Shown: positions 5,814 to 29,530 of the stretch, one piece after another
Position numbering within the stretch: position 1 is the stretch's first letter
Layout: each line of letters begins with the position of its first letter
IMG/VR virus record: IMGVR_UViG_3300044630_005824
Location: 1-31,222 of that record
From: a virus
DNA length: 31,222 nt
Direction: 5' to 3' (one strand)
Notes under the pieces: generated by a model
What the model was told of the DNA's origin: nothing
The model's input: only the letters and a program-made list of their open reading frames with translations
Database searches by the model: none
Program-made: the position numbers and the translations under genes

Positions 5814-8800
5814 TGGCACGAACTAGATCAGTTGATTTTTTACCAGAAATTTTTAGAACTCCAGTAAACAAGCAATTCCTGGCAGCTACTCTTGACCAAA
5901 TGGTTCAAGAACCAAAATTTAAAAAGACACAAGGTTTTATTGGGCGCACTGTGGGACCTGGTGTGAATCCCAATGACAGTTATGTTGTGGAACCAGATAT
6001 CACCAGACAAGACTATCAACTGGAACCAGGAGTTATTAGTCTTGAACCAGATACTCAAAATGTCAAGAACGTGATAACTTATCCTGGCATGAATGATGCC
6101 ATTGGATTTCAAGGTGGTGATCAGGCTCGTGCTGATCAACTGTACAACAGTGAATATTATACCTGGGATCCATTTGTTGATTACGATGCTTTCATCAATT
6201 TCAGTCAGTACTTTTGGTTGCCTAGTGGACCAGAAACAGTGGATGTACGATCGCTTGGCATCCCAACCAATGACAATTTTGTGGTCACAAGAGAAAATGG
6301 TGTTTATACTTTCTCAGGCCTATCCGGTAACAATCCCACAATTGATGTAGTACGAGGCGGTAGTTACACATTTCAAGTAGCGCAAAACGCCAAAGAGACT
6401 GTGAACTATCGGGTCACAAACAACGGCACCACCGCATACTTAATTGACTTCCAGGCCAATCCAACACTGACTCTGGCACGTGGTAATACCTATGTGTTCA
6501 ACATCACACTCAATGGTGTGTATCCTTTCTGGATCAAAACTGCGTTGAGTCTTGGCACAGGTGATGCATACAATTCGGGAGTGTTGCGAAACGGCAGCAG
6601 TTTTGGTCTTGTGACATTTACAGTGCCACAAGATGCTCCTGACACATTGTATTATGTGAGTGAGAATCAAACCAACTTGCGTGGTACCATTAATGTTGTC
6701 GATGGTACCCCAGGAACTGGCCCAGGATTTTGGATTCAGACTGCTCCAGGAGTGGCAGGGGTAGTACCTACAACTCCCAATCTCAGTAACCGCGGTGTTT
6801 ATGGTGTGACCAACAACGGTGAAGACCTGGGTATAGTAACGTTTGACGTGCCACAAAAAACTGCACAAGAATTTTACTATAATCTCACAGATGTAGGTCC
6901 AATTGATTTGTTGACTGAATTAAAATTCAATCAAATCAACAATCAGCCATTGGAACAATTTATCGCAACCTATGGCGGCATTGACGGCACCACGTATCTC
7001 AGTGGTCGTACACTGGTGTTTACAAACGATATTGCAGATGCTGAAGATGGAGGTTGGGTTGAAACTACATTGTTTGATCCGTTACCTAGATTAGATTCAT
7101 TCAACGGTGCAGTGGGCAGTTATGATTCTATCAACTTTGATCAGTCTACTGAAGTACCACTGTCAGATCGATATCAGGTATGGCAAATCAGCATAGTAAA
7201 TCGCAATGGCATTGACTATATTAGCCTGGCAAAAATTGCTGATATTGATATCAATGAAAAATTTACCATCAGTTATGGTAACACATACAGCAACACCAGT
7301 TGGTATAAAAATGCTGTTGGTTACTTTCAACGCATACCTTTGTTGACAGCGTTGTTCAACGAGTTGTATTATCAGGATGGCACTGATCCAGAAATTTTTG
7401 GCAAAATTCGTCTGCTGGATCAGACAGAAACCAGTACAATTTTTGTTGATCAAATTATTGGACAAAAAACTTATACCAGCCCCAATGGTGTGGCGTTTAC
7501 CAACGGTCTCAAAGTGCGTTTTACTGGTGATGTACTGCCAGTAAGTTACGGTTCAGGTACTACCACATTCACTTGCACTGCCACCCAGGCCGGCAGTAAT
7601 TACATCACATGCAGTTCAACTGTGGGATTGTACGAAGGCGAAGAGATTGTGTTTTCAGGCACTACCGCAGGTGGTATCATTGCTGGCCAAAGTTATTATA
7701 TCAAATCCTTGGCGGCTAATGGTATTCAATTTTCAATAGCCACAGTGGCTGACGGTGCAACATTTGAATTGAGTACTGCCACTGTGGTGGGATTTACTGC
7801 TGTGGCCATTGCCAACAATGAGTTTTATGTAGCAGGAGTTGGCACAGCAATTGAATTGCTGCCAGTGCGAAACTTTATCACTCCTGAAACTTATGTGGTC
7901 GATGCTAGAGATAGCACCATTGCCACAGAACCTGGGGAAGTAGACTATCTCACCATTGATCGCGCCAGTAAAGATTTGAACGCATGGACTCGTAGCAATC
8001 GTTGGTTTCACATAGAAGTTATCCAAGCCAGTGCTACCTACAACAACAACGTGGCCACGCTGGACAACAACTATCGTGCCAAACGTCCTATCATCAACTT
8101 TAGACCTGACATTAGATTGTACAACATGGGCACTGAAGGCAAACAGCCAGTGGACATCATTGACTTCTCAGAATCTGACGCACTCAGCAACATTGAAGGT
8201 AGCACCGGTTACTCAGTGGACGGCTATACATTTGTTGACGGCAGTCGAGTGATCTTTGCTGCTGATTCAGATCCTGAAGTTCGTAATAAAATTTATGTGG
8301 TTCAATTTATCACACCTGACAGTGTGGCACCGTTGATTGCACAACCAATCATCAATCTTGTAGTGGCCAGCGACGGCACAGTATTGCTGGATCAAAGTCT
8401 GGTATGTCTCGAAGGCACCACGCAAAAAGGCGTGAGTTTTTGGTACGATGGTGTGCAATGGACTCAAGCACAACAGAAAACCGGAGTACAACAAGCACCG
8501 TTGTTTAATGTGTATGATTTGACAGGCATCAGTTTTGGCGACAGAGCCAAATACCCATCCAGCACATTTACGGGCAGCAAGTTGTTCAGTTATGCTGTGG
8601 GCGATACTGGCATTCTTGATCCCATTTTACAATTCCCATTGCAATATTTGAACATCAACAACGTTGGTGACATTGTATTTGAAAACAACTTGTACAAAGA
8701 CACATTCTTGTATGTTGAAGACAATGTGTCAATCACATCAGACATCAGTTCAGGTGTGGCCAGAGAATACGTGGATCGTAATGTATTTGGCAAACTCATT

Positions 8801-11800
8801 GGTTGGCAAACTGCTGCGGCAAGCAGTCAGCAATATCAACAATTTAAATTTACATACACTGGACAAACACTAAAACTTGACGTGGCAGTTGGTACTGCTA
8901 CAGTGCTGCCACCGATGAAAATTTATGTAAGTTCAGATTTCTTGGCGCCAGACGAATACAGTTATGTTGTGAGCACCGACAGCACAACTATCACACTGCT
9001 TAACACTTATTTGCCCACTGACATCATTGAAGTGTTGGTATTGAGTGATCAAACTAGTGCTACTGCGTTTTATCAGGTGCCAATTAATTTACAAAACAAT
9101 CCGTTGAATACCAACAGTCCCAGTTTTACACTGGGTACCATTCGTACTCATTATGAAAGCATCTGCGAAAACTTGATGACATTGTCTGGACCAGTTAATG
9201 GTGCAAACAACACCAGAGATCTGGGTAATCTTGTGCCTTACGGTGCAACCATACTGCAACAAAGTTCTCCGTTGACCTTGGCTGGGTATTTTTTGCGCAG
9301 TGAAAAATACAACATATTCTCTAGCCTGCAATACAACAGCAATGAATATTTGAAATTCAAAGGCCAGATGCTGAACACTGCAATTCAACAAGTGGTTCAA
9401 TTTCAAACTGCTGGCGAAATATTAGATATTGCCATGGCAGATATCACACTGGGACGTATTGAAACACAGCCATTCTACTGGAGCGACATGATACCTGCAG
9501 GTGCAGTGTATCAAACCACAACATATACCATATCAAATACCACCAACGATACATTTGATATTATTAATGTGTACAATTACACATCAGCCAACTACCTGGG
9601 TATGAATGTGTATTTGAATGGAGTAATTCTCACCAGAGATCTTGATTACGCAGTGGCCACAGATGGTCCTAGAATTGTTGTATCAGTGACATTGACATTA
9701 GGTGATGTTCTCACCATAAATGAGTACTCTGCTACCTATGGTAGTTTTGTGCCCAATACTCCTACAAAACTAGGCTTGTATCCTGCTTACCGTCCAGAAA
9801 TTGTCACACAGAAGACCAGTTCAGGCACACAAACAGTGATTGTTGGGCACGATGGCAGCATTACAAAGACATTTGGCGACATTAGAGATGATGTGTTATT
9901 GGAATTCGAAACTAGAATATACAACAACTTGAAATTGGATGGAAATCCCGTGCCCATCAGCATTGCAGAAGTGCTGCCTGGACAGTTTAGAACCACCGGC
10001 TACAGCACAACTGATATCAACAACATCCTGGCCACAGACTTTTTGAGTTATGTGGCCTGGAACAAACTGGATTACAAAACACAAGATTACTCAGCTGTCA
10101 ATGAATTCACTTGGAACTACAGTGGAAGTACCAGTCGATTAGATAATGATGCATTGCCCGGCGCATGGCGCGGGATCTATCGTTACTACTATGACACTCA
10201 ACAGCCTGCAGAAACACCGTGGGAAATGTTGGGATTCTCAATTCGTCCAGTCTGGTGGAATCTGGTGTACGGCGATGGTCCATACACTCAAGACAACTTG
10301 GTGTTGTGGGACGACTTGGAAGCAGGTTACGTGGCAGACCCTGTTGCATCATATTATCTTCCTGAATATGCAAGACCTGGACTAACGTCAGTCATTCCCA
10401 CTGGCACAGAAGGCGAGTTGTCAAGCCCGTTTGATTCGGTTGTGGGCACATATAATGATACCACATTCCGCAAGAGTTGGAGTGTAGGTGACGGCGGCCC
10501 TGTAGAAGCATCGTGGTGGAACTCTAGTGCATATCCATTTGCTGTCATGCGACTGTTGGCGCTTACCCGTCCTGCCAAATTCTTTGCATTGTTTGCAGAT
10601 CGTGACTTGTACAAATTTGACGCAGACCTTGATCAGTACCTTTACAACAAGCGTTATAGATTGAATGCCAATGATTTGGAAATATACGGCAACGGAGTCA
10701 GCAAGGCCAGTTACATTGACTGGATTGTGGACTTTAATCGACAAAGTGGAGTAGACAGCACTGCTGACCTCACTGCTGACCTTGGTGCATTAGATGTGAG
10801 ATTGTGCTACAGAATGGCCAGTTTCTCAGACAAACAGTACATCAAAATTTACACTGAAAAGTCCAGCCCCAACTCAACCAACACAACTTTCTTGATTCCT
10901 GACGAAAGTTATGACTTGGTATTGTACAAGAATCAGCCATTTGATCGAGCCAGTTATTCAGCAGTGGTAATACAAAAAGTTGCAGGTGGCTACGCAGTGT
11001 TTGGCTACAGCACATCACAACCGTACTTCAACATAATTCAAAGTATCTACGCTGGACGTTTGCAAACTTACAGTGCAGGCGGCATCAGTGTACAAGTACC
11101 TACGTTTTACACAAACAATGTTACACAAATTCCATATGGATTTATTTTTGCTAGTGAAACCGCAGTGTCAGACTTTTTGTTGAGTTACGGACAATACCTG
11201 GAGCGACAAGGCTTGATATTCGACAATCGTGTCAATGGGTATGAATTAAACTGGGCACAAATGGTCAATGAGTTCCTGTACTGGAGTCAGCAGGGCTGGG
11301 ATGAAAATGCTTTGATCAATTTGAATCCATTGGCATTCAGACTCAGCATTTTTCGTGAGCAGGCTGTGGTAGACAGCATTGCTGCACAAACATCTGACAA
11401 CATATTGTTGGATCAGAATCGTAGAGAGTTGCCCACACGCAATCTCATTATCACACGACTGGACAATACATTTACAACAGAACCAGCTACAGATCAAACA
11501 CTGAGTTATATTGATTTAAAATACACTTCATATGAACACATGATTGTGTTGAAAAATACCAGTGTGTTTGGCGATCTGATTTATCAACCTGTGACCGGTG
11601 CTCGTCAAAGTCGACTAAATTTGATTGCTGTGACCACCACCGAATGGAATGGCTCAGTAGATGCTCAAGGCTTTATTCTCAATCAAGATAACATTCAAGA
11701 GTGGAACTCATACACAACATATACCAAAGGCGAAATTGTCAAGTACAAAGGTGCTTATTGGTCTGCTGCATCTATCGTCCAACCCACAGCAGTGTTCAAT

Positions 11801-14800
11801 GCCAATGATTGGTTGGCCAGCGACTATACACAAATAGAATTAGGGCTGTTGCCCAACTTGGCCAACAAAGCCAATCAATTGCAAAACAGTTACAACATTA
11901 ACGGTGCCAATCTTGAAAGCGACAACGATTTGTTGAGTTATGGCTTGATTGGATTCCGTCCACGACAATACATGACATCATTGAACCTTGATGATGTGAG
12001 TCAATTGAATGTGTATCGACAGTTCCTGGGCAGCAAAGGAACCATACTCAGTGCTGAATTATTTGCTCAGGCCAACCTGGGCAAGGAGTCTGCAGACTAC
12101 AGCATTTACGAAAATTGGGCGGTACAACGTGCAGTGTACGGTGCCAATGCCAATCGCAGCTTCTTCCAGTTACGATTGAATCGTGCGTTGTTGGATTCCA
12201 ACCCCAGTTTGATACAAATTGTCAATCCGCAAGAGACCAGTCAAGCAGACCAAACTATTTTGGTGTCAGATTTGTGGCGTCAAAGTTACAATATTACTTC
12301 TCCAGATATCCTACCAGTTACTACCACATTGCCCACAGATATTGCATTGCCCACAGCAGGTTATGTGAATCTTGACGATGTGGACATCACAGTGTTTGAC
12401 ATTGATAACACCGATAGCCTGGCCGCAAACATCAACTCAATTGGTGTTGGTACAAATGTATGGGTAGCAAAAATCAATGCATACGACTGGGCCATTTACA
12501 GAACTCAATCAGTGCCAGGCACTATCAATCATGTGTGTGACAACTTAGATGGAACCAGTTTGGTTATATTCTCTGGACAGCACGGACTCACGGTCAACGA
12601 CAAACTGGTCATACGATTCTTTGACACTGAAGTGGATGGTGTGTACACTGTACTCAGTGTGGTAAGTCTTGACACAATTACCGTAGCATTTAGTTTCACT
12701 GGCGACCGCACTGTGGTCAACGGTACAGGACTAGGTTTTACTTTGCAAACACAACGTGTTGCACAAGCCAGTGACATATTGAATCTTCCTTATGCCAATA
12801 CAATTGAACCAGGGGCCAAAGTCTGGGTAGACGACAACGGCAATGGTTTATGGACAGTGCTTGAAAAACAAGAAGTGTTCACTGAACTGTTAGGATTGAG
12901 TCCTTCAGAAGTTGACCAAGGCGAACAATACGGCAGTTCAATAGCACAAGCACAAAACCGATTTGCTGCCTTGGTAGGCAGTCCAAGATATCGTTTCCCA
13001 GTGGGTGCTACCGAATGGGCTATTGCCAATGAGTATGTGACAGGTGCAATTGTGTATGTGCCAGATCCACTACAAACAGAATTTTTCTATGCACCTGCTC
13101 CTGTGCCACAAGGCATCAGTATCTATAACACTGCATACTGGACTCCGTATCCATTGACCAACTTGCCACCACGTGGCGGAGTTTATGTGTACGTCAAAAG
13201 CGACAGCAATGTATACGCACCAGTCAGTGCCCTGGCACCCAATGACGCTGTGTTAAGTCTTGATGTATTAGATGTCAGCGGCGGGCCATTCAACGGCCAA
13301 ACTGCGGCACGTGAGTATGGCACCAGCGTAGATTTTGGCGATCAAACCTGGGCAGTAGCAGGGGCTCCAGGCAGCCTGGGATCAACTGGCGCTGTGGACA
13401 ATGGATATGCTGTGGTGATTTTTAGAGATCCACAACTAGCAGCACCAGGCAATATTCCTTATGGACAATGGCAATTGCTGACCAGCCCAGGGTCTACCAC
13501 TGGTGCTGAAGAATTTGGATACAGCGTGGCAATCAGCCAAGATGAACGTTGGATTTATGTTGGCGCACCTGGTGCAAACGCGGTGTATGCATACGGTCGA
13601 GTGGACTGGCAATTACAAAATCTCAAAGCAGTTGGCGACGGAGTTACTACTAATTACTTTATTGGTGACGTAATCAAAATTGATGCTGACACCCAACTCA
13701 CTGTCAGCGTTGATGGTGATGAACAAATCTTGGGTGCAGACTACACAGTGGTAAACTCATTTACCATGGTTGTGTTTACTACACCACCTGCAGAAGGCAA
13801 TGCTGTTGAAATTATTAGAACCAGTCGTAAGATTCTTGACTATCAAGCCACTTACGATGTAAGTCAATCAGCAACCTCAGGGTCAGGCACAGGAGCCAAG
13901 TTTACTGTGGTGTATCAACGCAATGAAGTTGGTCAACCAGCAGCCGGCAAAGGTCTTGTTTCCGTCACAACGCCTGGCACAAACTACACAGTGTCTGACA
14001 CTATAACTCTTAGTGCCGCCGGTTTTGGCGGAGATGTGGCCAATGGCAACATCACCCTCACAGTTACCAGCATTGGTGCTGGTGGAGCAGTTACTGGATT
14101 TTCTACAGCCTATGCGCCGTCGGTGTTGGCAACCACATTCTCATTGAATCAATACTTGTTCAGTGCTGACAACATTTACAGTTTTACATTGTTGGTAGAT
14201 GGCGTATTGCAACGTCCCAATATTGATTACACATTCAACAACTCCACATATGATGTGACATTTGCCGCAGCATCCAACCCACCTGCAGGTGCAAGTATTC
14301 TTGTACGTGCCGAAGGGTACTTTGAGTATGCTGGTACAATTACACATGCAGGATCTCAAGCAGGCGATAGATTTGGCCATAGTGTTAGTACCAGCACAGA
14401 CGGTCGACAAGTGCTTGTTGGCGCACCTTATACTACAGAATCCAGTTCTGCTGAGGCAGGCACAGTTTATGTGTTTGATCGAGACGTACAAAGATTCTTC
14501 TACGGCACAGAAGGATCAACTGTGTCATTCACAGTATTAGGATCTGTTGCAGAACCAGTGAGTGTGCTGGTCAACAACACTTTCTTTGTGAACGAATTGA
14601 GTGCAGCCCCTGACGAAACTGATACATTCTCCGTGAGTGGTAATACTGTTACCATACTTGGTGACTTGCAAGTAGGCGACATCATTGAAATTGAAACCAA
14701 TGATTTCCAATTTGTGCAATCTGTTAATCAAAACATAGTAGAAGAGTTCTCTAACTTTGGTTATGCTACAGACCTGTGCAGTTACAATTGCAGTTTGTAT

Positions 14801-17800
14801 GTTGGCGCACCAAACAGCAGTCTGCAACAATTAAAAGGTGGCATAGTTGAACGCCATATCAACCAAAGTCGTGCATACGGTATTACCACTGCCACAGTAG
14901 CCAATCCCAATTTAACCAATGGCAATACCATTAGAATTAACAATCAAGATGTTGTGGTTCCGGGTGCCTGGAACAATACCTCATCTTATGCAACAAATAC
15001 TGTGATTTACAATTTCAGTGCTGCCACTGCGGTGACCACAGTGTATCTAAGTTTGCAAAGTGTTCCGGCAGGAACTGCACTGTCCAACATATCATATTGG
15101 ACAACAATCACAACAACCACAGTCACAGCCAGTGCAGAAGTACGTGCGTTGGCCGCACAGATCAATGTGGATGTGCCCAATGTGCAGGCCACTGTAGATG
15201 CAGACGGATACTTAACTGTGGCAGTTAAAAACTCAGCAGCAGCACCAGTAGGCGATAAGTTAAATGTTGCTCCAGGCAGTGTTGGCACTACTTTTGCTGA
15301 CCTTGGTTTTGAAACTTATGTGTTTACTCAAACAATCAAGAGTCCTTATCCTGCAGACTATGCTGGATTTGGCAGCAGTTTGAGCATAGAGGACAGTGCT
15401 ATAAATTTAGTGGTTGGCGCACCACGAGGCACACTGTACTTGATCACAATTTTTGATCTCAACAACACAGTGTTTGACGAGGACGCCACAGACTTCTTTG
15501 ATCAAACTGTACAAAGTGGCGCTGTTTACACTTACGACTTGTTGGCCAGTGCTGCTCCATCAGTCAGCAATCCAGACAAATTTGTGTTTGGCCAACAAAT
15601 TGACAACCCCGATGTGGTATCATATGATCAATATGGCACAGCAGTAAACTATACTGATGGAGTGTTGTTTACAGGTGCTCCTGGCAACGAATTTGAAGAC
15701 AGCACACTTACTGCAAACTATGGACGAGTTTTTGTAAGCACTAACGAAACTCGCACTCCTTCTTGGTCTGTGTTGCGTGAACAAAAACCAGTGGTAGACG
15801 TGAGATTGTTAAACTCTGTTTATTCTTATGACCGACTTACATCAGCAACCACACAGTACTATGACTTTTTTAATCCACTGCAAGGCAAGATTCTTGGCGC
15901 AGCCAGACAAAATCTAGACTACATTGGTGCGGTAGACCCTGCCAGTTACAATGTTGGTCCAGTTGGTATACGTGGCACCACTTGGGGACAAAATCGTGTT
16001 GGCGAAACATGGTGGGATACTAGTTCAGTGCGATTTATTGATCCCAATCAAGATGACATTGTGTACGCAAGTCGTCGTTGGGGGCAAGTGTTTCCTGGCA
16101 GCACAGTAGATGTTTACCAATGGATTGTGAGCGCAACACCGCCTGCAGATTACACCGGTGAGGGAACTCCATACAGCATTGATAGTTATGTGATAAACAC
16201 TGTGTTGAGTGCCAATGGTATTTTTAATACTGAATATTATTTCTGGGTACGTGGCATAACTGCCACTGCCACACAAAAAGGCAAAACATTGCCAGTCAGC
16301 ACAGTGGCCAACTACATTGAGAATCCCAGAGCATCGGGCATAACTTATCTTGCACCCATTGATGCCAGCACAATTGCACTGTACAATGCTGGTGATTACA
16401 TCAATGCACAAGATACTATTATCAGCATTGAGTTTGACAAAGAATTAACCAATGACAATGTTCACGTTGAATATGAGTTGATTGCGCAAGATCGTGAAGA
16501 TGCATTTATCAGCAAGAATTTATACCGCAAAATGCAAGATAGTTTCTGTGGTGTTGATACCAACGGCAGTCTAGTGCCCGACATCAATCTTGGTGTGGCA
16601 GAACGGTATGGTGTGCAGTTCCGCCCGCGCCAAAGCATGTTTGTGGATAGATTTGCAGCGTTAAGAAACTACTTGACTCGTGCCAATGCAGTGCTGGCAA
16701 GATATACTATATCCGAAAGCCGACAATTTGTATTGTTAAACAGCAGCGAACCTGAGCCATTGCCAAGGTCGGGAGCATGGGACAAGCGTGTGGAGAATTT
16801 AGAAATACTAGAGTTTCAAAATATCAATATTGTGGCACTAGGATACAAATATCTAGTAGTCAGTGATTCCCGCAACAGAGGGCTGTGGACAATTTACACT
16901 GTTGAAGAAAGAGATACTGGTGCTGGCATTGTAAGAGTTTTGCAATTGACTCAGGTACAAAATTATGACACCACACAGTACTGGAGTTATGTCAATTGGT
17001 ATCGACCAGGATACAACAGTAGTAGTAAAATTATTGCCGAAGTTCCAAATGTGGCTGGGCTAGATACATTGAATGTATCTGTTGGAAGCAGTGTAAAAGT
17101 TACTGCCAACAGTCTGGGTAAATTTGAAATTTATCTACGTGGTGCTGCTGGATTTGAACGTGTGGGATTGCAAGATGGCACCATTGAATTTTCTGCACAA
17201 TTATGGGATTACCAACTAGGACGCTTTGGGTTTGACGTTGAAGTGTTTGACGCTCAGTATTATGACCAAGAACCTGTTATTGAAACACGCAAGATCATAC
17301 AGGCCATCAACGAAGAATTGTTCATTGATGACTTGCAAATTGAACGCAATCGTCAACTGACATTGATGTTCAACTTTGTGCTCAGCGAATTCGCTGCTCC
17401 TGAATGGCTGGTCAAGACCAGTTTGATTGACGTGGAACACAGAATTCGTAGTCTGACTAAATTTCAAAACTACAGTCGCGACAACCAAGAATTTGTGTTG
17501 GACTATATCCAAGAAGTCAAACCTTATCATGTTCAAGTCAGAGAATTTAATCTGAGATACAATGGTTTTGATCAATGGCTTGGGGACATGACTGACTTTG
17601 ATTTACCAGCATACTATAATACCAGTTTGCAGATACCTCAATTTACCAGCCCTATTTTGTTACCATATGCTCAGAGTACCGCATTTAATTCTGAAACCAA
17701 CACGCTAAGTGACTTACCAGCCAACTCCACAGTATGGGCATCTTGGCCATACAGCCAATGGTTTGAAAATTATCTGTTGAGATTAGATTCTGTACAATTA

Positions 17801-20800
17801 ATTGAAACAGGGTCTGGCTATACCGAACCCCCTGAAGTTGAGATTACTCCCAATCCTAACGATCCTGCACCAGAAGTTCTTGCTCAGGCTGTAGCAGTCC
17901 TTAATGGTGCAGGACAAGTGGTTGCTATAAATGTCACGGTCAATGGTGCAGGTTATCATTCCACACCAACAGTTACTTTCATTGGAGGCAACGGCACAGG
18001 TGCAGTGGCATATCCACGCATGACAAATGATGTTGTTCGACAATTCCGCACAGTAATTAGATACGATAGATTCCAATATCAAACCATAATCCAGACCTGG
18101 AGCAGTGAAGGTACTTACGAAAACGGAACTTTGGTTCGCTATGAAAATCGTGTATGGTCCGCACTCAATGCTGACGGAAGTTCAGCAGTGGTGGGCCCAA
18201 CGTTTGATCTAGAAAATTGGGTAATAGTCAATGCAGCCACATACACTTATCCAGGCAGCACACAAGCCACTGGATTGACCGGTGTTGACCGTACCATGGG
18301 CCTGTATGTGCCCGGCGCCAACGAATTTGGACTAGAATTACCATTGCTGGTAGATGGTGTTGACTATCCTGGTGTACAAGTTTGGGGCGATTACTTCACA
18401 GGTACGCAAACACTGGACGCAAACTATCAAAGCGAGTTCGCTGACATTTATCTTGGTGAACGTTTCAGTGACATCAACGTAGATGGCGGTGAGTTTGTTG
18501 GACCATATGAAGGTCATGCACCAGAAGAACTAGTAAATGGATCAGAGTACGACACATTGGACATGCGTATCTATACTCGTCCAGGTGCAGACTGGCAAAA
18601 CGACGGTCACGGTTTCCAAATTGGTACAATTCGTTACACATTTGAACCAGGCATTACATTTGATTACAGTTGGGCCGGGATTGTGGATCATCCATTCAAC
18701 ATCGTTGTGTCTAACTTGACTACTGGTCGAGTATTGGCCAGTGGTATTGATTATGTTGTTAATTGGGACGAAAGCACAATTACCATTGCTATCACTCCCA
18801 ACGTCGACTCGGGTGACATTATCAGTATAGATGTTTATGAAATTGGCGGCGGAAGTCAGTTGTTCAAAGGCAACTACACGGGCGTAGACGTAATAGCAGA
18901 CAACAAAACAATAATTGTTCCAGTTGGGTACAAAGAAATTGTAAACGTCTATGTATTTGTAAATGGCAACTTGGTAGCAATTCCAGAAGTTGCGCCATAC
19001 ACTGACAGCCAGGCATACAACATAAATGACACATATCAATCCATTGACATTGTATTCAACAACAATGCACTGGCAGTGACCAATACCGGGAATAATCTAG
19101 TCACTTGTAATAGTACCAGTGCGTTGACAATTGGGCAACCAATTGTTTTCTCTGGCACAGTTTTTGGTGGAGTTGTTGCAGCACAAGAATACTATGTGCA
19201 AAGTATTCTTAATGGAACACAGTTTTACATAACAGATATTGCAGGATCTACTGCCCCGTTGGCATTGACCACAGCGTCAGGACTAATGACTGGATCACCA
19301 AAAGGCGCATACTATCGTGCTGTTCAAACAGTTCCCCCTGGTATATTGTTGACCGATACGGATTATTGGATACCATTTGTTCCGTCTGTTCGCAGTAAAG
19401 TAACTATCACAGCTACCATCACAGCCACAGACGAGATATCAATGTTGATATCAGGAAACGCAACCAGTATCACAGTGACTGATACGCAAGCATTGGGCAA
19501 TGCCATTGTGTTGCTGGGATCAACTGCATCGTTGAGTGTGGGACAAACTGTCACATTCTCAGGTTATAGTTTAGGTGGGGTGTTAACAGGTACTACTTAT
19601 AATATTCTTAGCATTGTTGATGACTCAATGAGTGCTGTTACCATCACAGAGGACGGTGTCACGGAAGTTTCTTTGATTGATGACGAAGCTGCATGGGCTG
19701 GAGAACTGGTGGCAAAATTTGTTCCTACAACTTATCAAAGTTGGAGCACCCCAGTGATTGAAACGTTTGTTGTAGATCAAGAAATTATTGACAACAGTTC
19801 TGTAGAAATTGACAACGCACCTACTTTCAGCAATCCAGCTAACATGATCGTCATGATCAATGGATATAGAATACTTGGCCCAAGTTGCTTAGAATGGATC
19901 GGTGATGGCACCACAGCCAGTTTTGGACTACCACAACGTATGGGCACAAGTTTCTTACAGTCAACAATTGATGCTGTGAACGACATTCAAGTATATGTAA
20001 ATGGTGTTCTACAGAAACAATCATTTGGTGCAGAAGACGGAATGTATAGTGTTACCAACTGGGATGGTAGCAATACTCCTGGGCGACAAGTTGTGTTTGA
20101 GTCCGTTCCCGCTGATGGTACAGTTATTTTGATTGCAGTGAGCACTATTGCCGATTGTGAATTCGCATACAACCCTGTTGTGCCGGAATGTACATCTACA
20201 TTGCAAATTTCCAGCACACTTAACCTAGGCGATATTGTACAGGTTATTACCTGGAATGATACCAGACAACAAAATGCATTGACATTGACATTTGCCGGAC
20301 CGGTACAAACAGGTACAACAATTTTTCAAGCATATGATACCACAGACTATGACAGCCCAACACTGAATGATCCAACACAACCACTGCCTGGCGAGTTTGC
20401 TTTCGAAGTTGGCACATCAAGTCCAGTTAATGATTTTGACTTGTTACGTACCAACATTGATGCCAGCAGATTATGGGTAACATTAGACGGCTTGAGATTG
20501 TTCGAAGGCAGTGATTACACAATTCAAGGGCAATATTTGATACTAGCACAAGGTGCAATTGGTGCGGCTGAACAATTAATTGTAACTGAGTTCACTAATT
20601 CTGTTGTGCCTGAAGCAATAGCATTCCGCATTTTCCAAGACATGCGAGGAATACAAGCCACCTATAGAATGACCACAGCCACTACTACACAAGTGGCACA
20701 AGCAGTCAGTGCCACTGCTGATATAATTTATGTAGAAAACGCAGCGTCGTTGAGTGAACCTGACTTGCCTTCTGGAGTGTTTGGCATCATAACCATCGAC

Positions 20801-21334
20801 GGCGAACGCATCATGTACAGATATCGTGATTTGGTTGCAAACAGTGTGTCCGGGTTACAACGTGGCACAGCCGGAACAGCAACTAGTAGTCATGCAGTGG
20901 GTGCAGATGTTTATGACATTGGCCGTGGCAACTTGTTGAACGTTCAGTACCAAGATTATGTGGTCAAAGACACAGGCATGGGCGATGGCACGACTGCTGT
21001 GTTCTATGCTCCTAGCATTGACATTGCAGACTTTGGTGATTCAAGTACAGTATACGTAGAAAGTATAGAAGTTTATGTAGGCGGTATACGCCAATACAAC
21101 TACAGTGATACTGGAGCAAATAGTGAATATCGATATATTGTGTCACTATTTGATCCACTGGCTATTGAGTTTATAGTTGATGATACGTACCCAGCACCAG
21201 CAGCAGGCAGTGAAGTAACCATACTACAACGTCGCGGTAAGAGCTGGTATCAACCTGCTGACGGTAACCCCAGCAACGGAATTGCATTGCAAGAAACTGA
21301 TACAATAGCCGCAAGGTTTTTGTGTGACAGATAA
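5813..21334 (+). CDS. Giant baseplate-associated multidomain structural protein (5,173 aa)
   Basis: This is a single uninterrupted frame of 5,173 residues. I chose ATG 5813, which shares a base with the gp6 stop (TGATG) and has GGAG at 5802-5805, over the in-frame TTG at 5810. The N terminus (FLPEIFRTPVNKQFL, TQGFIGRTVGPGVNP, YYTWDPFVDYDAF) matches a large structural protein that follows gene 6 in many T4-like aquatic phages, where T4 has genes 7 and 8. Approximate order by residue: 1-140 conserved head; 215-360 two cupredoxin-like repeats; 585-663 a beta repeat recurring at ~4420 and ~4562; 1240-1750 conserved Trp/Tyr-rich core; chitin-binding-like motifs at ~1961, 2397, 3048 and 4092; FG-GAP blades at 2501-3290; QFRPRQSMFVDRFAALRNY near 3605; several 'VDGVLQ'-type repeats, the last near 5100. 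It is probably a wedge-linked adhesin or fibre scaffold. That role is inference. Confidence 0.85.
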   Translation: MARTRSVDFLPEIFRTPVNKQFLAATLDQMVQEPKFKKTQGFIGRTVGPGVNPNDSYVVEPDITRQDYQLEPGVISLEPDTQNVKNVITYPGMNDAIGFQGGDQARADQLYNSEYYTWDPFVDYDAFINFSQYFWLPSGPETVDVRSLGIPTNDNFVVTRENGVYTFSGLSGNNPTIDVVRGGSYTFQVAQNAKETVNYRVTNNGTTAYLIDFQANPTLTLARGNTYVFNITLNGVYPFWIKTALSLGTGDAYNSGVLRNGSSFGLVTFTVPQDAPDTLYYVSENQTNLRGTINVVDGTPGTGPGFWIQTAPGVAGVVPTTPNLSNRGVYGVTNNGEDLGIVTFDVPQKTAQEFYYNLTDVGPIDLLTELKFNQINNQPLEQFIATYGGIDGTTYLSGRTLVFTNDIADAEDGGWVETTLFDPLPRLDSFNGAVGSYDSINFDQSTEVPLSDRYQVWQISIVNRNGIDYISLAKIADIDINEKFTISYGNTYSNTSWYKNAVGYFQRIPLLTALFNELYYQDGTDPEIFGKIRLLDQTETSTIFVDQIIGQKTYTSPNGVAFTNGLKVRFTGDVLPVSYGSGTTTFTCTATQAGSNYITCSSTVGLYEGEEIVFSGTTAGGIIAGQSYYIKSLAANGIQFSIATVADGATFELSTATVVGFTAVAIANNEFYVAGVGTAIELLPVRNFITPETYVVDARDSTIATEPGEVDYLTIDRASKDLNAWTRSNRWFHIEVIQASATYNNNVATLDNNYRAKRPIINFRPDIRLYNMGTEGKQPVDIIDFSESDALSNIEGSTGYSVDGYTFVDGSRVIFAADSDPEVRNKIYVVQFITPDSVAPLIAQPIINLVVASDGTVLLDQSLVCLEGTTQKGVSFWYDGVQWTQAQQKTGVQQAPLFNVYDLTGISFGDRAKYPSSTFTGSKLFSYAVGDTGILDPILQFPLQYLNINNVGDIVFENNLYKDTFLYVEDNVSITSDISSGVAREYVDRNVFGKLIGWQTAAASSQQYQQFKFTYTGQTLKLDVAVGTATVLPPMKIYVSSDFLAPDEYSYVVSTDSTTITLLNTYLPTDIIEVLVLSDQTSATAFYQVPINLQNNPLNTNSPSFTLGTIRTHYESICENLMTLSGPVNGANNTRDLGNLVPYGATILQQSSPLTLAGYFLRSEKYNIFSSLQYNSNEYLKFKGQMLNTAIQQVVQFQTAGEILDIAMADITLGRIETQPFYWSDMIPAGAVYQTTTYTISNTTNDTFDIINVYNYTSANYLGMNVYLNGVILTRDLDYAVATDGPRIVVSVTLTLGDVLTINEYSATYGSFVPNTPTKLGLYPAYRPEIVTQKTSSGTQTVIVGHDGSITKTFGDIRDDVLLEFETRIYNNLKLDGNPVPISIAEVLPGQFRTTGYSTTDINNILATDFLSYVAWNKLDYKTQDYSAVNEFTWNYSGSTSRLDNDALPGAWRGIYRYYYDTQQPAETPWEMLGFSIRPVWWNLVYGDGPYTQDNLVLWDDLEAGYVADPVASYYLPEYARPGLTSVIPTGTEGELSSPFDSVVGTYNDTTFRKSWSVGDGGPVEASWWNSSAYPFAVMRLLALTRPAKFFALFADRDLYKFDADLDQYLYNKRYRLNANDLEIYGNGVSKASYIDWIVDFNRQSGVDSTADLTADLGALDVRLCYRMASFSDKQYIKIYTEKSSPNSTNTTFLIPDESYDLVLYKNQPFDRASYSAVVIQKVAGGYAVFGYSTSQPYFNIIQSIYAGRLQTYSAGGISVQVPTFYTNNVTQIPYGFIFASETAVSDFLLSYGQYLERQGLIFDNRVNGYELNWAQMVNEFLYWSQQGWDENALINLNPLAFRLSIFREQAVVDSIAAQTSDNILLDQNRRELPTRNLIITRLDNTFTTEPATDQTLSYIDLKYTSYEHMIVLKNTSVFGDLIYQPVTGARQSRLNLIAVTTTEWNGSVDAQGFILNQDNIQEWNSYTTYTKGEIVKYKGAYWSAASIVQPTAVFNANDWLASDYTQIELGLLPNLANKANQLQNSYNINGANLESDNDLLSYGLIGFRPRQYMTSLNLDDVSQLNVYRQFLGSKGTILSAELFAQANLGKESADYSIYENWAVQRAVYGANANRSFFQLRLNRALLDSNPSLIQIVNPQETSQADQTILVSDLWRQSYNITSPDILPVTTTLPTDIALPTAGYVNLDDVDITVFDIDNTDSLAANINSIGVGTNVWVAKINAYDWAIYRTQSVPGTINHVCDNLDGTSLVIFSGQHGLTVNDKLVIRFFDTEVDGVYTVLSVVSLDTITVAFSFTGDRTVVNGTGLGFTLQTQRVAQASDILNLPYANTIEPGAKVWVDDNGNGLWTVLEKQEVFTELLGLSPSEVDQGEQYGSSIAQAQNRFAALVGSPRYRFPVGATEWAIANEYVTGAIVYVPDPLQTEFFYAPAPVPQGISIYNTAYWTPYPLTNLPPRGGVYVYVKSDSNVYAPVSALAPNDAVLSLDVLDVSGGPFNGQTAAREYGTSVDFGDQTWAVAGAPGSLGSTGAVDNGYAVVIFRDPQLAAPGNIPYGQWQLLTSPGSTTGAEEFGYSVAISQDERWIYVGAPGANAVYAYGRVDWQLQNLKAVGDGVTTNYFIGDVIKIDADTQLTVSVDGDEQILGADYTVVNSFTMVVFTTPPAEGNAVEIIRTSRKILDYQATYDVSQSATSGSGTGAKFTVVYQRNEVGQPAAGKGLVSVTTPGTNYTVSDTITLSAAGFGGDVANGNITLTVTSIGAGGAVTGFSTAYAPSVLATTFSLNQYLFSADNIYSFTLLVDGVLQRPNIDYTFNNSTYDVTFAAASNPPAGASILVRAEGYFEYAGTITHAGSQAGDRFGHSVSTSTDGRQVLVGAPYTTESSSAEAGTVYVFDRDVQRFFYGTEGSTVSFTVLGSVAEPVSVLVNNTFFVNELSAAPDETDTFSVSGNTVTILGDLQVGDIIEIETNDFQFVQSVNQNIVEEFSNFGYATDLCSYNCSLYVGAPNSSLQQLKGGIVERHINQSRAYGITTATVANPNLTNGNTIRINNQDVVVPGAWNNTSSYATNTVIYNFSAATAVTTVYLSLQSVPAGTALSNISYWTTITTTTVTASAEVRALAAQINVDVPNVQATVDADGYLTVAVKNSAAAPVGDKLNVAPGSVGTTFADLGFETYVFTQTIKSPYPADYAGFGSSLSIEDSAINLVVGAPRGTLYLITIFDLNNTVFDEDATDFFDQTVQSGAVYTYDLLASAAPSVSNPDKFVFGQQIDNPDVVSYDQYGTAVNYTDGVLFTGAPGNEFEDSTLTANYGRVFVSTNETRTPSWSVLREQKPVVDVRLLNSVYSYDRLTSATTQYYDFFNPLQGKILGAARQNLDYIGAVDPASYNVGPVGIRGTTWGQNRVGETWWDTSSVRFIDPNQDDIVYASRRWGQVFPGSTVDVYQWIVSATPPADYTGEGTPYSIDSYVINTVLSANGIFNTEYYFWVRGITATATQKGKTLPVSTVANYIENPRASGITYLAPIDASTIALYNAGDYINAQDTIISIEFDKELTNDNVHVEYELIAQDREDAFISKNLYRKMQDSFCGVDTNGSLVPDINLGVAERYGVQFRPRQSMFVDRFAALRNYLTRANAVLARYTISESRQFVLLNSSEPEPLPRSGAWDKRVENLEILEFQNINIVALGYKYLVVSDSRNRGLWTIYTVEERDTGAGIVRVLQLTQVQNYDTTQYWSYVNWYRPGYNSSSKIIAEVPNVAGLDTLNVSVGSSVKVTANSLGKFEIYLRGAAGFERVGLQDGTIEFSAQLWDYQLGRFGFDVEVFDAQYYDQEPVIETRKIIQAINEELFIDDLQIERNRQLTLMFNFVLSEFAAPEWLVKTSLIDVEHRIRSLTKFQNYSRDNQEFVLDYIQEVKPYHVQVREFNLRYNGFDQWLGDMTDFDLPAYYNTSLQIPQFTSPILLPYAQSTAFNSETNTLSDLPANSTVWASWPYSQWFENYLLRLDSVQLIETGSGYTEPPEVEITPNPNDPAPEVLAQAVAVLNGAGQVVAINVTVNGAGYHSTPTVTFIGGNGTGAVAYPRMTNDVVRQFRTVIRYDRFQYQTIIQTWSSEGTYENGTLVRYENRVWSALNADGSSAVVGPTFDLENWVIVNAATYTYPGSTQATGLTGVDRTMGLYVPGANEFGLELPLLVDGVDYPGVQVWGDYFTGTQTLDANYQSEFADIYLGERFSDINVDGGEFVGPYEGHAPEELVNGSEYDTLDMRIYTRPGADWQNDGHGFQIGTIRYTFEPGITFDYSWAGIVDHPFNIVVSNLTTGRVLASGIDYVVNWDESTITIAITPNVDSGDIISIDVYEIGGGSQLFKGNYTGVDVIADNKTIIVPVGYKEIVNVYVFVNGNLVAIPEVAPYTDSQAYNINDTYQSIDIVFNNNALAVTNTGNNLVTCNSTSALTIGQPIVFSGTVFGGVVAAQEYYVQSILNGTQFYITDIAGSTAPLALTTASGLMTGSPKGAYYRAVQTVPPGILLTDTDYWIPFVPSVRSKVTITATITATDEISMLISGNATSITVTDTQALGNAIVLLGSTASLSVGQTVTFSGYSLGGVLTGTTYNILSIVDDSMSAVTITEDGVTEVSLIDDEAAWAGELVAKFVPTTYQSWSTPVIETFVVDQEIIDNSSVEIDNAPTFSNPANMIVMINGYRILGPSCLEWIGDGTTASFGLPQRMGTSFLQSTIDAVNDIQVYVNGVLQKQSFGAEDGMYSVTNWDGSNTPGRQVVFESVPADGTVILIAVSTIADCEFAYNPVVPECTSTLQISSTLNLGDIVQVITWNDTRQQNALTLTFAGPVQTGTTIFQAYDTTDYDSPTLNDPTQPLPGEFAFEVGTSSPVNDFDLLRTNIDASRLWVTLDGLRLFEGSDYTIQGQYLILAQGAIGAAEQLIVTEFTNSVVPEAIAFRIFQDMRGIQATYRMTTATTTQVAQAVSATADIIYVENAASLSEPDLPSGVFGIITIDGERIMYRYRDLVANSVSGLQRGTAGTATSSHAVGADVYDIGRGNLLNVQYQDYVVKDTGMGDGTTAVFYAPSIDIADFGDSSTVYVESIEVYVGGIRQYNYSDTGANSEYRYIVSLFDPLAIEFIVDDTYPAPAAGSEVTILQRRGKSWYQPADGNPSNGIALQETDTIAARFLCDR
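6440..6900 (+). repeat. Two tandem cupredoxin-like repeats inside the giant protein, metal ligands lost
   Basis: Copy 1 spans about residues 213-296: NPTLTLARGNTYVFNITLNG, PFWIKT, GLVTFTVPQDAPDTLYYV, then LRGTINVVD. Copy 2 spans about residues 303-360 and repeats the core as GFWIQT...GVYGVTNNGEDLGIVTFDVPQ...FYYN. This is the pattern of a cupredoxin-like domain common in aquatic phage virion proteins. The usual Cys-x-x-His-x-x-Met end is replaced by SENQTNL in copy 1 and is absent in copy 2, so copper binding is unlikely. The domain name is from recall of the pattern. Confidence 0.55.
13313..15690 (+). repeat. Six FG-GAP (integrin-type beta-propeller) blades within the giant protein
   Basis: Each unit pairs an F/Y-G-x-x-V/L strand with a V/A-G-A-P turn 14-18 residues later. 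The pairs are YGTSV...AGAP (2501-2519), FGYSV...VGAP (2568-2586), FGHSV...VGAP (2854-2872), FGYAT...VGAP (2982-3000), FGSSL...VGAP (3186-3204) and YGTAV...GAP (3274-3290). Most units end with a G-x-V-Y-x-F/Y strand (AGTVYVFDRD, SGAVYTYDL, YGRVFVS). This matches the FG-GAP repeat of integrin alpha chains and bacterial adhesins. Other beta domains of 60-200 residues are inserted between some blades. A seventh blade was not found. Confidence 0.65.
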
Positions 21335-22135: not shown

Positions 22136-23923
22136 ATGGCATATACAATCAATCTAACCGACGGCACAGTTTTTGCTACCATAAGTGATGGTACAATCAA
22201 CACATCAAGTTCAATGATCTTGGTGGGCAAAAACTACGCTGGATACGGTGAATTTTTGGACGAAAACTTTATCCACTTGTTGGAAAATGGTTCAAACACC
22301 ACTGCACCAGCTTCCCCACTGACGGGGCAATTATGGTGGGACAAAACCAATAACTTGCTGAAAGTTTACAACGGTTCTATTTTCAAAACAATTAGTGCTG
22401 CCACGGCTTCTGCCAGTCAGCCCGCCAGCAACGTCACAGGTGACCTGTGGTATGATACCACAAATCAACAGTTGAAAGTTTATACTGGTGCAAGTTTCTT
22501 GGTTGTGGGTCCTGGATATTCTCAAGCACAAGGTACGTCAGGTGCTATTCCTGAAACAATTTTAAACAACGTTGGCGCCACACGATACATCACTAGTTTG
22601 TATGTGAACAACGTTCGAGTGGCCATTGTGTATGATGGCGCTAGTTTTACACCTGAGGCCGCGCTGGTCACTGCTTTCCCAACCATCTTCCCAGGCATGA
22701 CATTGAGTGCTTCGGTATCAGGTGCTGTGTTTGCTGGATCAGCCACTAACGCACAGTTGTTGGACAGTTTGGACAGTAGTCAATTCATGCGCACCGACAC
22801 AGCCACTTCTACCACTGGCGTGTTGCGAGTACAAAATAACACTGGGTTATTTGTGGGCGTGGCCAATGTGTTCAACGTCAACACCACAAGCACAGATGCC
22901 AATATAAAGAGCAATATTTCAGGTGGTAATTTGATCATCCAGGCCAATGTCAGCGGCACAACATTCAATGTAGCCACAGCATTAGGAGCCAGCGGTACAT
23001 TTGCTATTGCTAATGCTGCCACTGTGGGAACTACATTGACTGTAACTGGCAACAGTTCAGGTGGTAATTTAACCACGGGCGGACAAGTATCAGCAATTGG
23101 TAACATTACTGGTGGTAATCTTAATACCCTAGCGTTGGTCCAAGCCAATACTGTCAGCGCCACAGCCAATGTGCAAGCAGGTAACTTGCGAACTGTTGGT
23201 CAAGTGAGTTCTACAGGTAATATCACATCAGCGGCCAATATTGCAGGCACATTCTTCTTGGGCAATGGGTCACAGCTCACAGGCTTGAGCCTGGGGGTTA
23301 GCGTTACTAAATTTGTCAATGGTACAACCGAGGGCAACATTGGCGTGTCTGGCGGCAACGTTAACTTTGACGTGGGCGGGACTGCCAACGTGCTAGTTCT
23401 CACCACAGGCACAGCATTCTTTGCTGGCAATGTGAGCACAATTGGTATTGAGAAAACCGGCACAAACGCAATTGGCAACATTGGATCTAGTTCAAACTAC
23501 TTCAACCGGGTGTTTGCCACTGCTACCACAGCACTGTACGCTGACGTTGCAGAACGCTTTGCAGCAGATGAATTATTGGAACCTGGCACAGTTGTGGAAT
23601 TGGGCGGTACTAAAGAAATTACTCGTTCTACTGTAGATTTAAGCGAAAATGTATTTGGTGTTATAAGTACAAGACCAGCCTACACCATGAACGGCGGAGC
23701 CGGCGAAGACGACACTCATCCAGCGGTTGCAATGACAGGTCGAGTTCCTGTAAAATGTGTGGGCACAATACGCAAAGGTGATCGATTGGTCAGTGCTGGT
23801 GAAGGAGTCGCAAGAGCAGCTCAACCAGGAGAAGCCACAGCATTCAATGTGATTGGTCGCTCATTGGAAAACAAACACACACCAGAACTAGGAACAATCG
23901 AAGCGATTGTAACGATCAAATAA
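22136..23923 (+). CDS. Tail-fibre-like virion protein with repeat shaft and conserved C-terminal domain (595 aa)
   Basis: The N-terminal ~125 residues carry SSSMILVGKNYAGYGEFLDE, LTGQLWWDKTNNLLKVYNG and its near-repeat VTGDLWYDTTNQQLKVYTG, a conserved head in fibre proteins of T4-like aquatic phages. Residues ~215-385 form a low-complexity shaft of short Gly/Asn/Thr repeats (GNLTTGGQVSAIGNITGGNL). The C-terminal ~135 residues (ALYADVAERFAADELLEPGT, VFGVISTRPAYTMNG, HPAVAMTGRVPVKCVG, KGDRLVSAGEG) match the domain that ends many phage fibres. It is related in pattern to Peptidase_G2-like intramolecular chaperone domains, though no cleavage site can be proved here. The start has a good ribosome binding site and a consensus late promoter. 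The likely role is an adsorption fibre or collar/whisker-like appendage. The exact fibre class is unknown. Confidence 0.78.
   Translation: MAYTINLTDGTVFATISDGTINTSSSMILVGKNYAGYGEFLDENFIHLLENGSNTTAPASPLTGQLWWDKTNNLLKVYNGSIFKTISAATASASQPASNVTGDLWYDTTNQQLKVYTGASFLVVGPGYSQAQGTSGAIPETILNNVGATRYITSLYVNNVRVAIVYDGASFTPEAALVTAFPTIFPGMTLSASVSGAVFAGSATNAQLLDSLDSSQFMRTDTATSTTGVLRVQNNTGLFVGVANVFNVNTTSTDANIKSNISGGNLIIQANVSGTTFNVATALGASGTFAIANAATVGTTLTVTGNSSGGNLTTGGQVSAIGNITGGNLNTLALVQANTVSATANVQAGNLRTVGQVSSTGNITSAANIAGTFFLGNGSQLTGLSLGVSVTKFVNGTTEGNIGVSGGNVNFDVGGTANVLVLTTGTAFFAGNVSTIGIEKTGTNAIGNIGSSSNYFNRVFATATTALYADVAERFAADELLEPGTVVELGGTKEITRSTVDLSENVFGVISTRPAYTMNGGAGEDDTHPAVAMTGRVPVKCVGTIRKGDRLVSAGEGVARAAQPGEATAFNVIGRSLENKHTPELGTIEAIVTIK
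22919..23285 (+). repeat. Coding short-repeat shaft in the fibre gene
   Basis: Similar DNA words recur in frame, for example ggtggtaat at 22922, 23060 and 23112. They encode units such as SGGNLIIQANVSG, SGGNLTTGGQVSAIGNITGG and AGNLRTVGQVSSTGNITSA, roughly 15-20 residues apart. This is a typical beta-structured fibre shaft and a place where recombination could change shaft length. It is part of the reading frame, not a noncoding repeat. Confidence 0.6.
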
Positions 23924-26076: not shown

Positions 26077-26830
26077 ACAAGGTTATGTGATTGTTGCTGT
26101 CAACAGCAATACAGTTGATTACCTGGACTGTGCCAAAACTTTGGCCAAGACCATACGCTACTGGGATCCGTCAGCAAGAATCTGTTTGATCACAGACAGC
26201 CCTTACACTGATCCCTTTTACGATCACCACAGACAACTTGTGCCCGAAGCAAATCCTTATGCCAATGACGCACAACTGTTTAGACTCACGCCATTTCGTG
26301 AAACTATCAAACTAGAGGCGGATATGTTGATTGTATCACCTATTGCACATTGGTGGACACAGTTTAGACATAGAGATGTTGTGATATCAACAGGCTGTAG
26401 AGATTGGCAGGATCGTGTGAGCACAGCAAGACATTATCGCAGAGTGTTTGATGCCAACAACTTGCCTGATGTGTACAATGCTGTCACATACTGGCGGCGC
26501 AGTGAAACAGCAAAAGAGTTCTTTGGCTGGGTCAGCAACATATTTGCCAACTGGGTAGAGTTTAAGAAACTCATAAAGTTTCCGGATGAAGTGCCGTCTA
26601 CTGATCTAGTGTACGCCATGGCCGCTGAAATCATGGGACGAGAGCGTGTAACAATGCCATTCAGCACATATCCCAAAATAGTGCATATGAAACGACACAT
26701 AGCAGGAACACACACTGAACACTGGCTGGATGAATTGGTGTGGGAATATCAGGACCTGAGACTGCGCATTCAAACTGTGCCACAAACAGGTGCGTTTCAT
26801 TACCATGTCAAAGATTGGCAGGCACGATGA
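26060..26830 (+). CDS. Putative glycosyltransferase-like protein, copy 2 (EAD in place of DAD)
   Basis: This encodes 256 residues, starting at TTG 26060 behind GGAGG, and overlaps the previous gene by 17 bases. It is a paralogue of the upstream gene: GYVIVAVNSNTVDYLDCAKT and ICLITDSP align with GVLIFAFNNEATDYIAMAAW and VALVTDDP. TPFRETIKLEADMLIVSP aligns with SPFDQTIVLDADYVVASD. The canonical first Asp of the DxD is Glu here (EAD, residues 86-88). Metal binding may be kept, altered or lost. Further features are DVYNAVTYWRRSETAKEFF, PSTDLVYAMAAEIMG and a His-rich C terminus (KIVHMKRHIAGTHTEHW, GAFHYHVKDW), which keeps candidate metal or catalytic residues. Its TGA overlaps the next ATG. Sugar specificity is unknown. 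It may form a pair with copy 1. Confidence 0.65.
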   Translation: MQPIDEQGYVIVAVNSNTVDYLDCAKTLAKTIRYWDPSARICLITDSPYTDPFYDHHRQLVPEANPYANDAQLFRLTPFRETIKLEADMLIVSPIAHWWTQFRHRDVVISTGCRDWQDRVSTARHYRRVFDANNLPDVYNAVTYWRRSETAKEFFGWVSNIFANWVEFKKLIKFPDEVPSTDLVYAMAAEIMGRERVTMPFSTYPKIVHMKRHIAGTHTEHWLDELVWEYQDLRLRIQTVPQTGAFHYHVKDWQAR

Positions 26831-29529: not shown

Positions 29530-29530
29530 G

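Follow-up and report, generated by a model that had tools for sequence, protein, structure and literature searches.

We analysed the complete IMG/VR virus record IMGVR_UViG_3300044630_005824, a stretch of 31,222 bases referred to here as the window, in which a gene for a giant virion protein contains a predicted integrin-type FG-GAP propeller between two conserved scaffold blocks (Table 1). The giant gene follows directly after the gp6-like baseplate wedge gene, which is the gene position of T4 gp7, and the order gp25, gp6, giant is also seen in the cultivated phages PA5oct, Atu_ph07, Phosso and Munch. This synteny suggests that the giant is a component of the baseplate wedge. Residue 1 in our numbering is the TTG at 5810, although translation probably starts at the ATG at 5813, whose overlap with the stop codon of gp6 reads TGATG. 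Four of five overlapping pieces of the giant matched phrog_10938, a family of virion structural proteins (E-values 1.5e-89, 3.5e-145, 1.2e-26 and 2.1e-47), while the last piece had no match to this family. The record of the PA5oct homologue carries the note ESI-MS/MS (electrospray ionization tandem mass spectrometry), and the Atu_ph07 homologue, gp180, falls within CDS (coding sequences) 170-215, which PMC6102473 describes as one of the clusters encoding most virion proteins.

The segment between the scaffold blocks was identified by profile, model and superposition. Residues 2300-3500 of the giant matched the Pfam family FG-GAP_2 (PF14312) at 2.3e-15, with 56.9 bits against a cut-off of 23, and the family matched all 22 members of alignment A1, for which 21 of 29 loci were used (L006, L010, L011, L015, L017, L022, L023 and L026 were excluded, being partial or near-duplicates). 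An AlphaFold2 model of residues 2341-3400 was calculated from 61 sequences, which remained of 83 after removal of near-identical ones (93% or more); L091 was dropped since its frame was broken in the match. The model reached a predicted local distance difference test score (pLDDT) of 84.7 and a predicted template modelling score (pTM) of 0.85, and shows a seven-bladed ring with inserts in the blade loops rather than a series of separate beta-sandwiches. An integrin-type FG-GAP propeller with other domains looped between its blades is what the original prediction, made from the sequence alone, had proposed for this giant, and both the profile search and the structure prediction that it called for agree with the proposal.

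Superposition of the predicted model with VIA-align, a method that tolerates inserts and by which 884 of 962 chains reached Z 8, gave integrin alpha-M (9t3y_A) as the best match, with 366 residues aligned at 2.7 Å and a Z-score of 38.8. All 50 matches listed were integrin alpha chains (Z 35.3-38.8, 353-391 residues), and the match spans model residues 15 to 982. For alpha-5 (4wk0_A), 391 of 449 residues were aligned at 3.0 Å, so that nearly the whole ring was matched. The two top chains and most of the 50 listed by Foldseek were also integrins (best 7.6e-8), with a few other chains from large complexes interspersed; the whole-model TM-scores were low (best 0.28/0.61) because of the inserts. 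We conclude that, as modelled, the region is a full integrin-alpha-type propeller with seven blades. Solved FG-GAP propellers are mostly integrins, and the superposition of the model speaks for a shared fold and not for descent from integrins, nor does it support a greater closeness to integrins than to other FG-GAP proteins. When the propeller profile was compared by sequence with solved structures, the only matches were 3f5d_A (E 0.2) and 7ceb_A, an integrin alpha-6 (E 0.43), neither of them significant.

The blade motifs can be read directly from the sequence. The strict pair [FY]G..[VLT].{8,13}[VA]GAP occurred five times in the giant, as compared to a mean of 0.002 and a maximum of 1 in 2000 shuffles. 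Six paired F/YGxxV/L and V/AGAP motifs had been predicted and were present as described, with FG/YG starts at residues 2503, 2569, 2855, 2983, 3187 and 3275 (spacings 66, 286, 128, 204 and 88) and the residue preceding GAP at 2517, 2584, 2870, 2998, 3202 and 3288 (spacings 67, 286, 128, 204 and 86); the predicted spacings of 67, 286, 128, 204 and 88 are thus right to within 2 residues. The count of six was one too low: blade 1, with the motif YGSSIAQAQNRFAALVGSP at residues 2374-2392, which ends in VGSP, lies upstream of the interval 13313-15690 that had been proposed. A six-bladed ring was therefore ruled out, and that interval falls inside the propeller, for which the structure gives the wider range in Table 1. 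The strict strand G.VY.[FY] that had been expected to accompany the motifs was found at two of the six blades (residues 2884 and 3237) and in blade 1 (residue 2456), the other strands being looser. A blade profile built from the family recovered seven blades in the window, which is partly by construction, and seven in L203, L222 and L223, with three to six in the remainder of the 10 propeller-bearing relatives scanned; it was applied to 17 of the 80 loci of the PA5oct-led set described below. Blade 5 holds two cysteines, Cys 2990 and Cys 2994, that are conserved without exception in all 61 sequences, and this pair, four residues apart, is possibly a disulfide or a metal site.

Table 1. Features of the window and the evidence for each; aa, amino acid residues of the giant
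Feature	Position	Strand	Basis
gp25-like baseplate wedge gene	1916-2290	+	phrog_43 6e-11
gp6-like baseplate wedge gene	2337-5813	+	phrog_10646 1.8e-274, phrog_219 4.9e-24
Giant virion protein gene, gp7 position, 5174 codons counting TTG at 5810	5813-21334	+	Open reading frame
Conserved scaffold block before slot, aa 1240-2354	9527-12871	+	A3, mean column identity 72%, 49 sequences
Predicted integrin-type FG-GAP propeller of seven blades, with domain inserts, aa 2355-3322	12872-15775	+	Profile, model, superposition, blade profile
Blade 1 motif, YG..VGSP	12929-12985	+	Motif and blade profile; no Pfam match singly
Blade 1 insert in 2-3 loop, W..Y..W module	13001-13159	+	Matched at 1.1e-7 by profile of 14942-15124 module
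Blade 2 motif	13316-13369	+	Motif and blade profile; no Pfam match singly
Blade 3 motif	13514-13570	+	PF14312 3.5e-4, 21.1 bits, below cut-off singly; blade profile
Blade 3 insert: T7-fibre-N-like domain, Gly-rich module aa 2690-2785, second domain	13622-14359	+	PF03906 3.4e-5
Blade 4 motif	14372-14428	+	PF14312 3.7e-9 singly; blade profile
Blade 4 insert, beta strands in model	14462-14719	+	Model; no family match
Blade 5 motif, Cys 2990 and Cys 2994	14756-14812	+	Blade profile; no FG-GAP match singly
Blade 5 insert, flagellin-hook-IN-like, with nested W..Y..W module 14942-15124	14837-15319	+	PF07196 0.0046 (weak)
Blade 6 motif	15368-15424	+	PF14312 0.066 singly (weak); blade profile
Blade 7 motif	15632-15682	+	PF14312 0.073 singly (weak); blade profile
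Conserved scaffold block after slot, aa 3323-3960	15776-17689	+	A4, mean column identity 68%, 45 sequences
Fibre-like gene, downstream of giant	22136-23923		Profile annotation

The scaffold blocks on both sides of the propeller allowed the corresponding slot to be located in relatives (A3 holds 49 of 61 located regions and A4 45 of 57; of the second locus set, 63 of 78 loci were used and 15 repeats or partial ones left out). A scan of IMG/VR led by the post-slot block of PA5oct gave at least 575 relatives, of which the best 80 were analysed; these were selected as the most similar to the PA5oct block rather than drawn at random, and near-identical contigs were kept. The slot was measurable in 77 of the 80 (L156, L175 and L198 being the exceptions), with a propeller in 66 and none in 11. 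Sixty-five of the propellers were called by a trimmed profile within the slot alone and one by motif (L205, 6 motifs). The original profile, A2, had included about 78 residues of the post-slot scaffold and called 61 by profile and 5 by motif; the trimmed rebuild left the count of 66 of 77 unchanged, and likewise the propeller counts of 28 of 28 loci in a separate set chosen by the post-slot block of L031 and of 0 of 6 cultivated giants. A scan led by Atu_ph07 found a single contig, 100% identical to Atu_ph07 in the block. Among contigs of cellular genomes, 7 stretches matched a search pattern and none was a relative, giving no hint of a host. The propeller-bearing contigs were up to 364 kb in size and hence derive from jumbo-type phages.

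Slots with a propeller were 425-1362 amino acids long; the 400-520 bin held 32 of them and the 600-700 bin 21. The compact ones (425-520 amino acids, 32 of 66) are about the size of an integrin propeller, and the three that were scanned with FG-GAP_2 scored 70.4 (L184), 55.1 (L153) and 32.7 bits (L172). A lenient motif pattern was found 5 to 8 times per slot in the 32 compact slots, and L168 has 7 lenient motifs, where its shuffles average 0.9 and never exceed 5. At the other extreme, L178 has 0 and L177 has 2 amino acids between the flanks. In L178 the pre-slot profile aligns up to its position 1117 of 1121 and the post-slot profile from position 2 onward, the junction reading WKVYQK-YG-VWFEYRSE, where the window has LWTVLEK, the propeller and SWSVLRE. 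The pre-slot profile matched L178 at 1.1e-22 and L177 at 4.9e-135, and the post-slot profile at 1.7e-57 and 6.8e-58, respectively. From these sequence comparisons, the propeller is best described as an optional cassette at one fixed junction, which is empty, compact or loop-decorated in related giants. A slot without a propeller in another relative (L195 4333-6000) showed a weak match to the tail sheath Gp18 domain (6.4e-4, below cut-off).

The decorations differ among relatives. The large inserts of blades 3, 4 and 5 are all located in strand 3-4 loops, and blades 1 and 6 carry smaller inserts in 2-3 loops, as assigned by DSSP of the model against the known integrin topology; since all three large inserts occupy the same kind of loop, they would lie on one face of the predicted propeller, in line with the original prediction. 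The PF03906 match in the blade 3 insert scored 24.0 bits, just below the cut-off of 25.2, and the second domain of this insert partly matches the T7-fibre-N-like domain (self-match 2e-5). The Gly-rich module of the blade 3 insert resembles a part of the blade 4 insert in L018 (40% identity over 73 residues, E 6e-8), and five loci (L132, L134, L135, L139 and L141) have an extra copy of the equivalent of residues 2766-2832, placed at the equivalent of residue 3131 within the blade 5 insert. Because of these relocations, in L018 and the five loci, we consider that the loops vary in content and that modules move among relatives.

Sequence divergence was compared across 45 sequences common to three alignments. 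Identity to the window was 71% and 73% in the scaffold blocks, 61% in the blade cores and 54% at other propeller positions, and the ratio of nonsynonymous to synonymous substitutions (dN/dS) against three close relatives was 0.03-0.06, 0.04-0.08 and 0.08-0.09 in the scaffold, the blade cores and the rest of the propeller, respectively. Judging from these values, the domain is real and constrained, all parts are under purifying selection and the inserts are freer.

The six cultivated giants, from PA5oct, Atu_ph07, Phosso, SCTP-2, Munch and Vibrio phage 2.275.O, all matched both flanking profiles, and none of the six was matched by the propeller profiles with or without scaffold ends. Their slot intervals, taken from the last to the first aligned profile position and therefore including some unaligned scaffold, were about 78 amino acids in Munch, 95 in PA5oct, 128 in Vibrio phage 2.275.O, 399 in SCTP-2, 902 in Phosso and 1064 in Atu_ph07, with the pre-slot ends weakly placed in PA5oct and Atu_ph07. 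A LamG-like content of the SCTP-2 slot was considered and dropped, as it had no Pfam support. Four propeller queries against 50,697 phage records identified no embedded propeller at the E-value limits used. The first query matched 3 records, Phosso at residues 3282-3386 (to the end of blade 7) and two Atu_ph07 records at 3319-3385, which is essentially the post-slot block; the second gave 11 weak matches (E 0.06-0.5), of which 10 fell on a single stretch resembling the blade 3 insert; the third had a single match, to another Phosso gene; and the fourth had zero matches. FG-GAP_2 was found in 9 of 13 records, namely in 8 of 9 large propeller contigs and, among four cultivated phages, in another gene of Atu_ph07. 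This gene, gp320, annotated 'hemagglutinin protein' (L115 3019-4200) and situated beside the tail sheath gene, encodes a standalone FG-GAP protein (FG-GAP_2 2.3e-6; fold match 1.6e-8). A second giant of Phosso (L227, record positions 57900-68978, about 3,690 amino acids) matched a compact propeller with 24% identity over 79% of its length (E 3e-4).

We think that the cassette is best explained as an optional binding platform displayed on the baseplate, with a probability of roughly 55%, given what sort of domain it is and that it is optional and decorated. With the giant in the baseplate wedge, several copies of the propeller would be found at the tail tip of each virion. The cassette would sit in a turn between the scaffold strands WTVLEK and WSVLRE, causing little disturbance and facing outward, and the propeller would act as a stiff disc on which exchangeable loop domains are displayed. 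It may then bind to a target beyond the baseplate; the likeliest is the host surface or its glycans, which would be contacted either ahead of firm attachment or in the course of it.

The alternatives differ in what the ring would be for, or in whether there is a ring at all. The propeller and its loop domains might instead form a docking hub that anchors other fibres or whiskers, the T7-fibre-N-like loops serving as sockets. PF03906 is the domain by which the T7 fibre is fixed to the tail, and its occurrence in 8 of the 22 A1 members (at E 0.01 or better, best 1.1e-7), the fibre-like gene downstream and the strong purifying selection, which suits a fixed protein partner, all fit such a hub; yet about half of the propeller slots (32 of 66) are so close to the size of one bare ring that there is little room for such domains, some relatives have empty slots, and the PF03906 match in the window itself falls short of the Pfam threshold. 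Weighing these points, we judge host-surface contact likelier than fibre docking, at about one half against one quarter, so that a hub is unlikely, if worth keeping in mind. Less probable still is that the ring is structural filler, a beta domain without a binding role that makes the baseplate stiffer or wider and is retained since its loss would be costly. The coexistence of empty, compact and long forms and the lack of diversifying selection agree with filler, whereas an FG-GAP propeller would be unusual as a spacer, which would have no need of loop modules that vary, go missing or move in relatives. That a string of independent beta domains, with FG-GAP motifs arising by chance, has been mistaken for a propeller is very improbable: blades 1, 2 and 5 indeed have no FG-GAP match singly and the Foldseek scores of the whole model are low, but the shuffles, the profile, the model and the superposition all contradict it, and so do distant relatives, whose FG-GAP motifs are about as numerous and lie without interruption within a stretch of integrin size.

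Several observations weigh against the binding platform or the steps that lead to it. Receptor binding is a prediction from the domain. There was no sign of diversifying selection, averaged over the domain in comparisons with the three close relatives. A profile of the carbohydrate module CBM5/12 matched neither of the two W..Y..W stretches in the window; weak matches below cut-off were obtained in 2 of 8 insert stretches (L021 0.0036, L027 0.013). The calcium binding that the original prediction had mentioned for FG-GAP propellers did not hold up here, since the pattern D.[DN].[DN]G has no match in the window propeller and its single match in the window precedes it; calcium-dependent binding was thus ruled out for the window blades. 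The pattern occurs elsewhere in the region in 7 of 61 sequences, counted irrespective of the blade hairpins. The placement of the giant in the wedge rests on synteny because no homology to T4 gp7 was detected when 14 giants were aligned by hhalign with the T4 gp7 sequence alone (top probability 0.1%).

The pre-slot side of the empty junction rests on the profile because pairwise BLAST with the last 156 pre-slot residues was weak (E 0.26 for L178 and 0.045 for L177), and FG-GAP_2 missed the propeller-bearing record of L097 (G003). The model of the pre-slot scaffold was poor (pLDDT 61.6, pTM 0.36), and a surface placement of the slot is therefore unsupported by it. The 50 fold matches listed for this model extend over about 94-191 columns and consist of ubiquitin-activating enzymes and phage endosialidases, with no baseplate chain among them; they were too weak for use, although they hint that a small beta domain precedes the slot. 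Profiles of the flanking blocks found nothing relevant among solved structures, and the post-slot profile found no integrin in the PDB at E 1 or better.

If the ring is displayed as proposed, a complete propeller in a giant of the baseplate region, carried by jumbo-type phages that are common but uncultivated, is a candidate for host contact, and relatives that share the scaffold but have their socket empty offer natural controls. An embedded propeller would go unnoticed in the cultivated models because none was found among the 50,697 phage records at the limits used. More tentatively, and at clearly less than even odds, jumbo-type phages may share in the gp7-position giant a standard socket for an exchangeable integrin-type adhesion cassette with interchangeable loop tips. 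If this were true, gain, loss and re-decoration of the cassette would provide a route to altered host range that is distinct from the swapping of tail fibres.

Two neighbouring genes further downstream (window positions 26740-27928) resemble the halves of HldE/RfaE (TIGR02199 2.3e-34 and TIGR02198 4.7e-41, both below the NCBI cut-off), an enzyme that makes ADP-heptose, and are followed by a cupin gene; together they possibly constitute a phage-borne sugar pathway beside the tail genes. A radical SAM gene is located downstream of the tail cluster (29372-30616; PF04055 4.3e-10), and genes annotated as radical SAM are similarly placed in Atu_ph07 and Phosso (L035 26704-32865; L116 23483-30607).

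FG-GAP repeats in phage proteins are already known as annotation. In a literature search, with preprints and most subscription papers outside its scope, we found no account of a phage baseplate giant with an FG-GAP propeller embedded in it, and none of the slot; the words 'propeller' and 'FG-GAP' are absent from the accessible text of PMC7824862, PMC6892783 and PMC6102473, as is 'hemagglutinin' from that of PMC6102473. The BFVD database contains proteins of uncultured Caudovirales phages with fold matches to the model, A0A6J5S3H5 ('FG-GAP repeat', 3.9e-15) and A0A6J5L8L4 (2.2e-25), which are named by the repeat or as uncharacterized and some of which may belong to the window family, and it also holds giant-virus proteins with FG-GAP or similar folds. 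The six cultivated phrog_10938 giants have the scaffold on both sides as in the window, with other or no content in place of the propeller, whereas the FG-GAP-like Atu_ph07 gp320 and second Phosso giant are encoded by separate genes and not by the giant in the gp7 position. A chain from the tail of cyanophage A4 (9k09_U) was ranked 33 by Foldseek (2.2e-6). Propellers occur elsewhere in phage tails: the T7-type nozzle contains a beta-propeller, and the receptor-binding protein of the Staphylococcus phages phi11 and 80alpha is reportedly a tail propeller that binds the host wall. Both are set apart here by description, as propellers of other kinds in other tail parts.

Integrin-type propellers form the adhesion heads of animal cells and are also found in bacterial surface proteins. 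Integrin blades carry the calcium motif DxDxDG in their hairpins, whereas the window blades are without it, and the integrin alpha chain has thigh, calf and membrane parts where the window propeller is followed by the phage scaffold block. Inserted domains are a feature of both, as the propellers of integrin alpha-M, alpha-X and alpha-L carry an I domain, which is located between blades 2 and 3, while the large inserts of the window lie in strand 3-4 loops. The ring itself is alike, in that integrin alpha-M, alpha-X and alpha-5 (9t3y, 5es4 and 4wk0) have seven FG-GAP blades in one ring, as does the window model.

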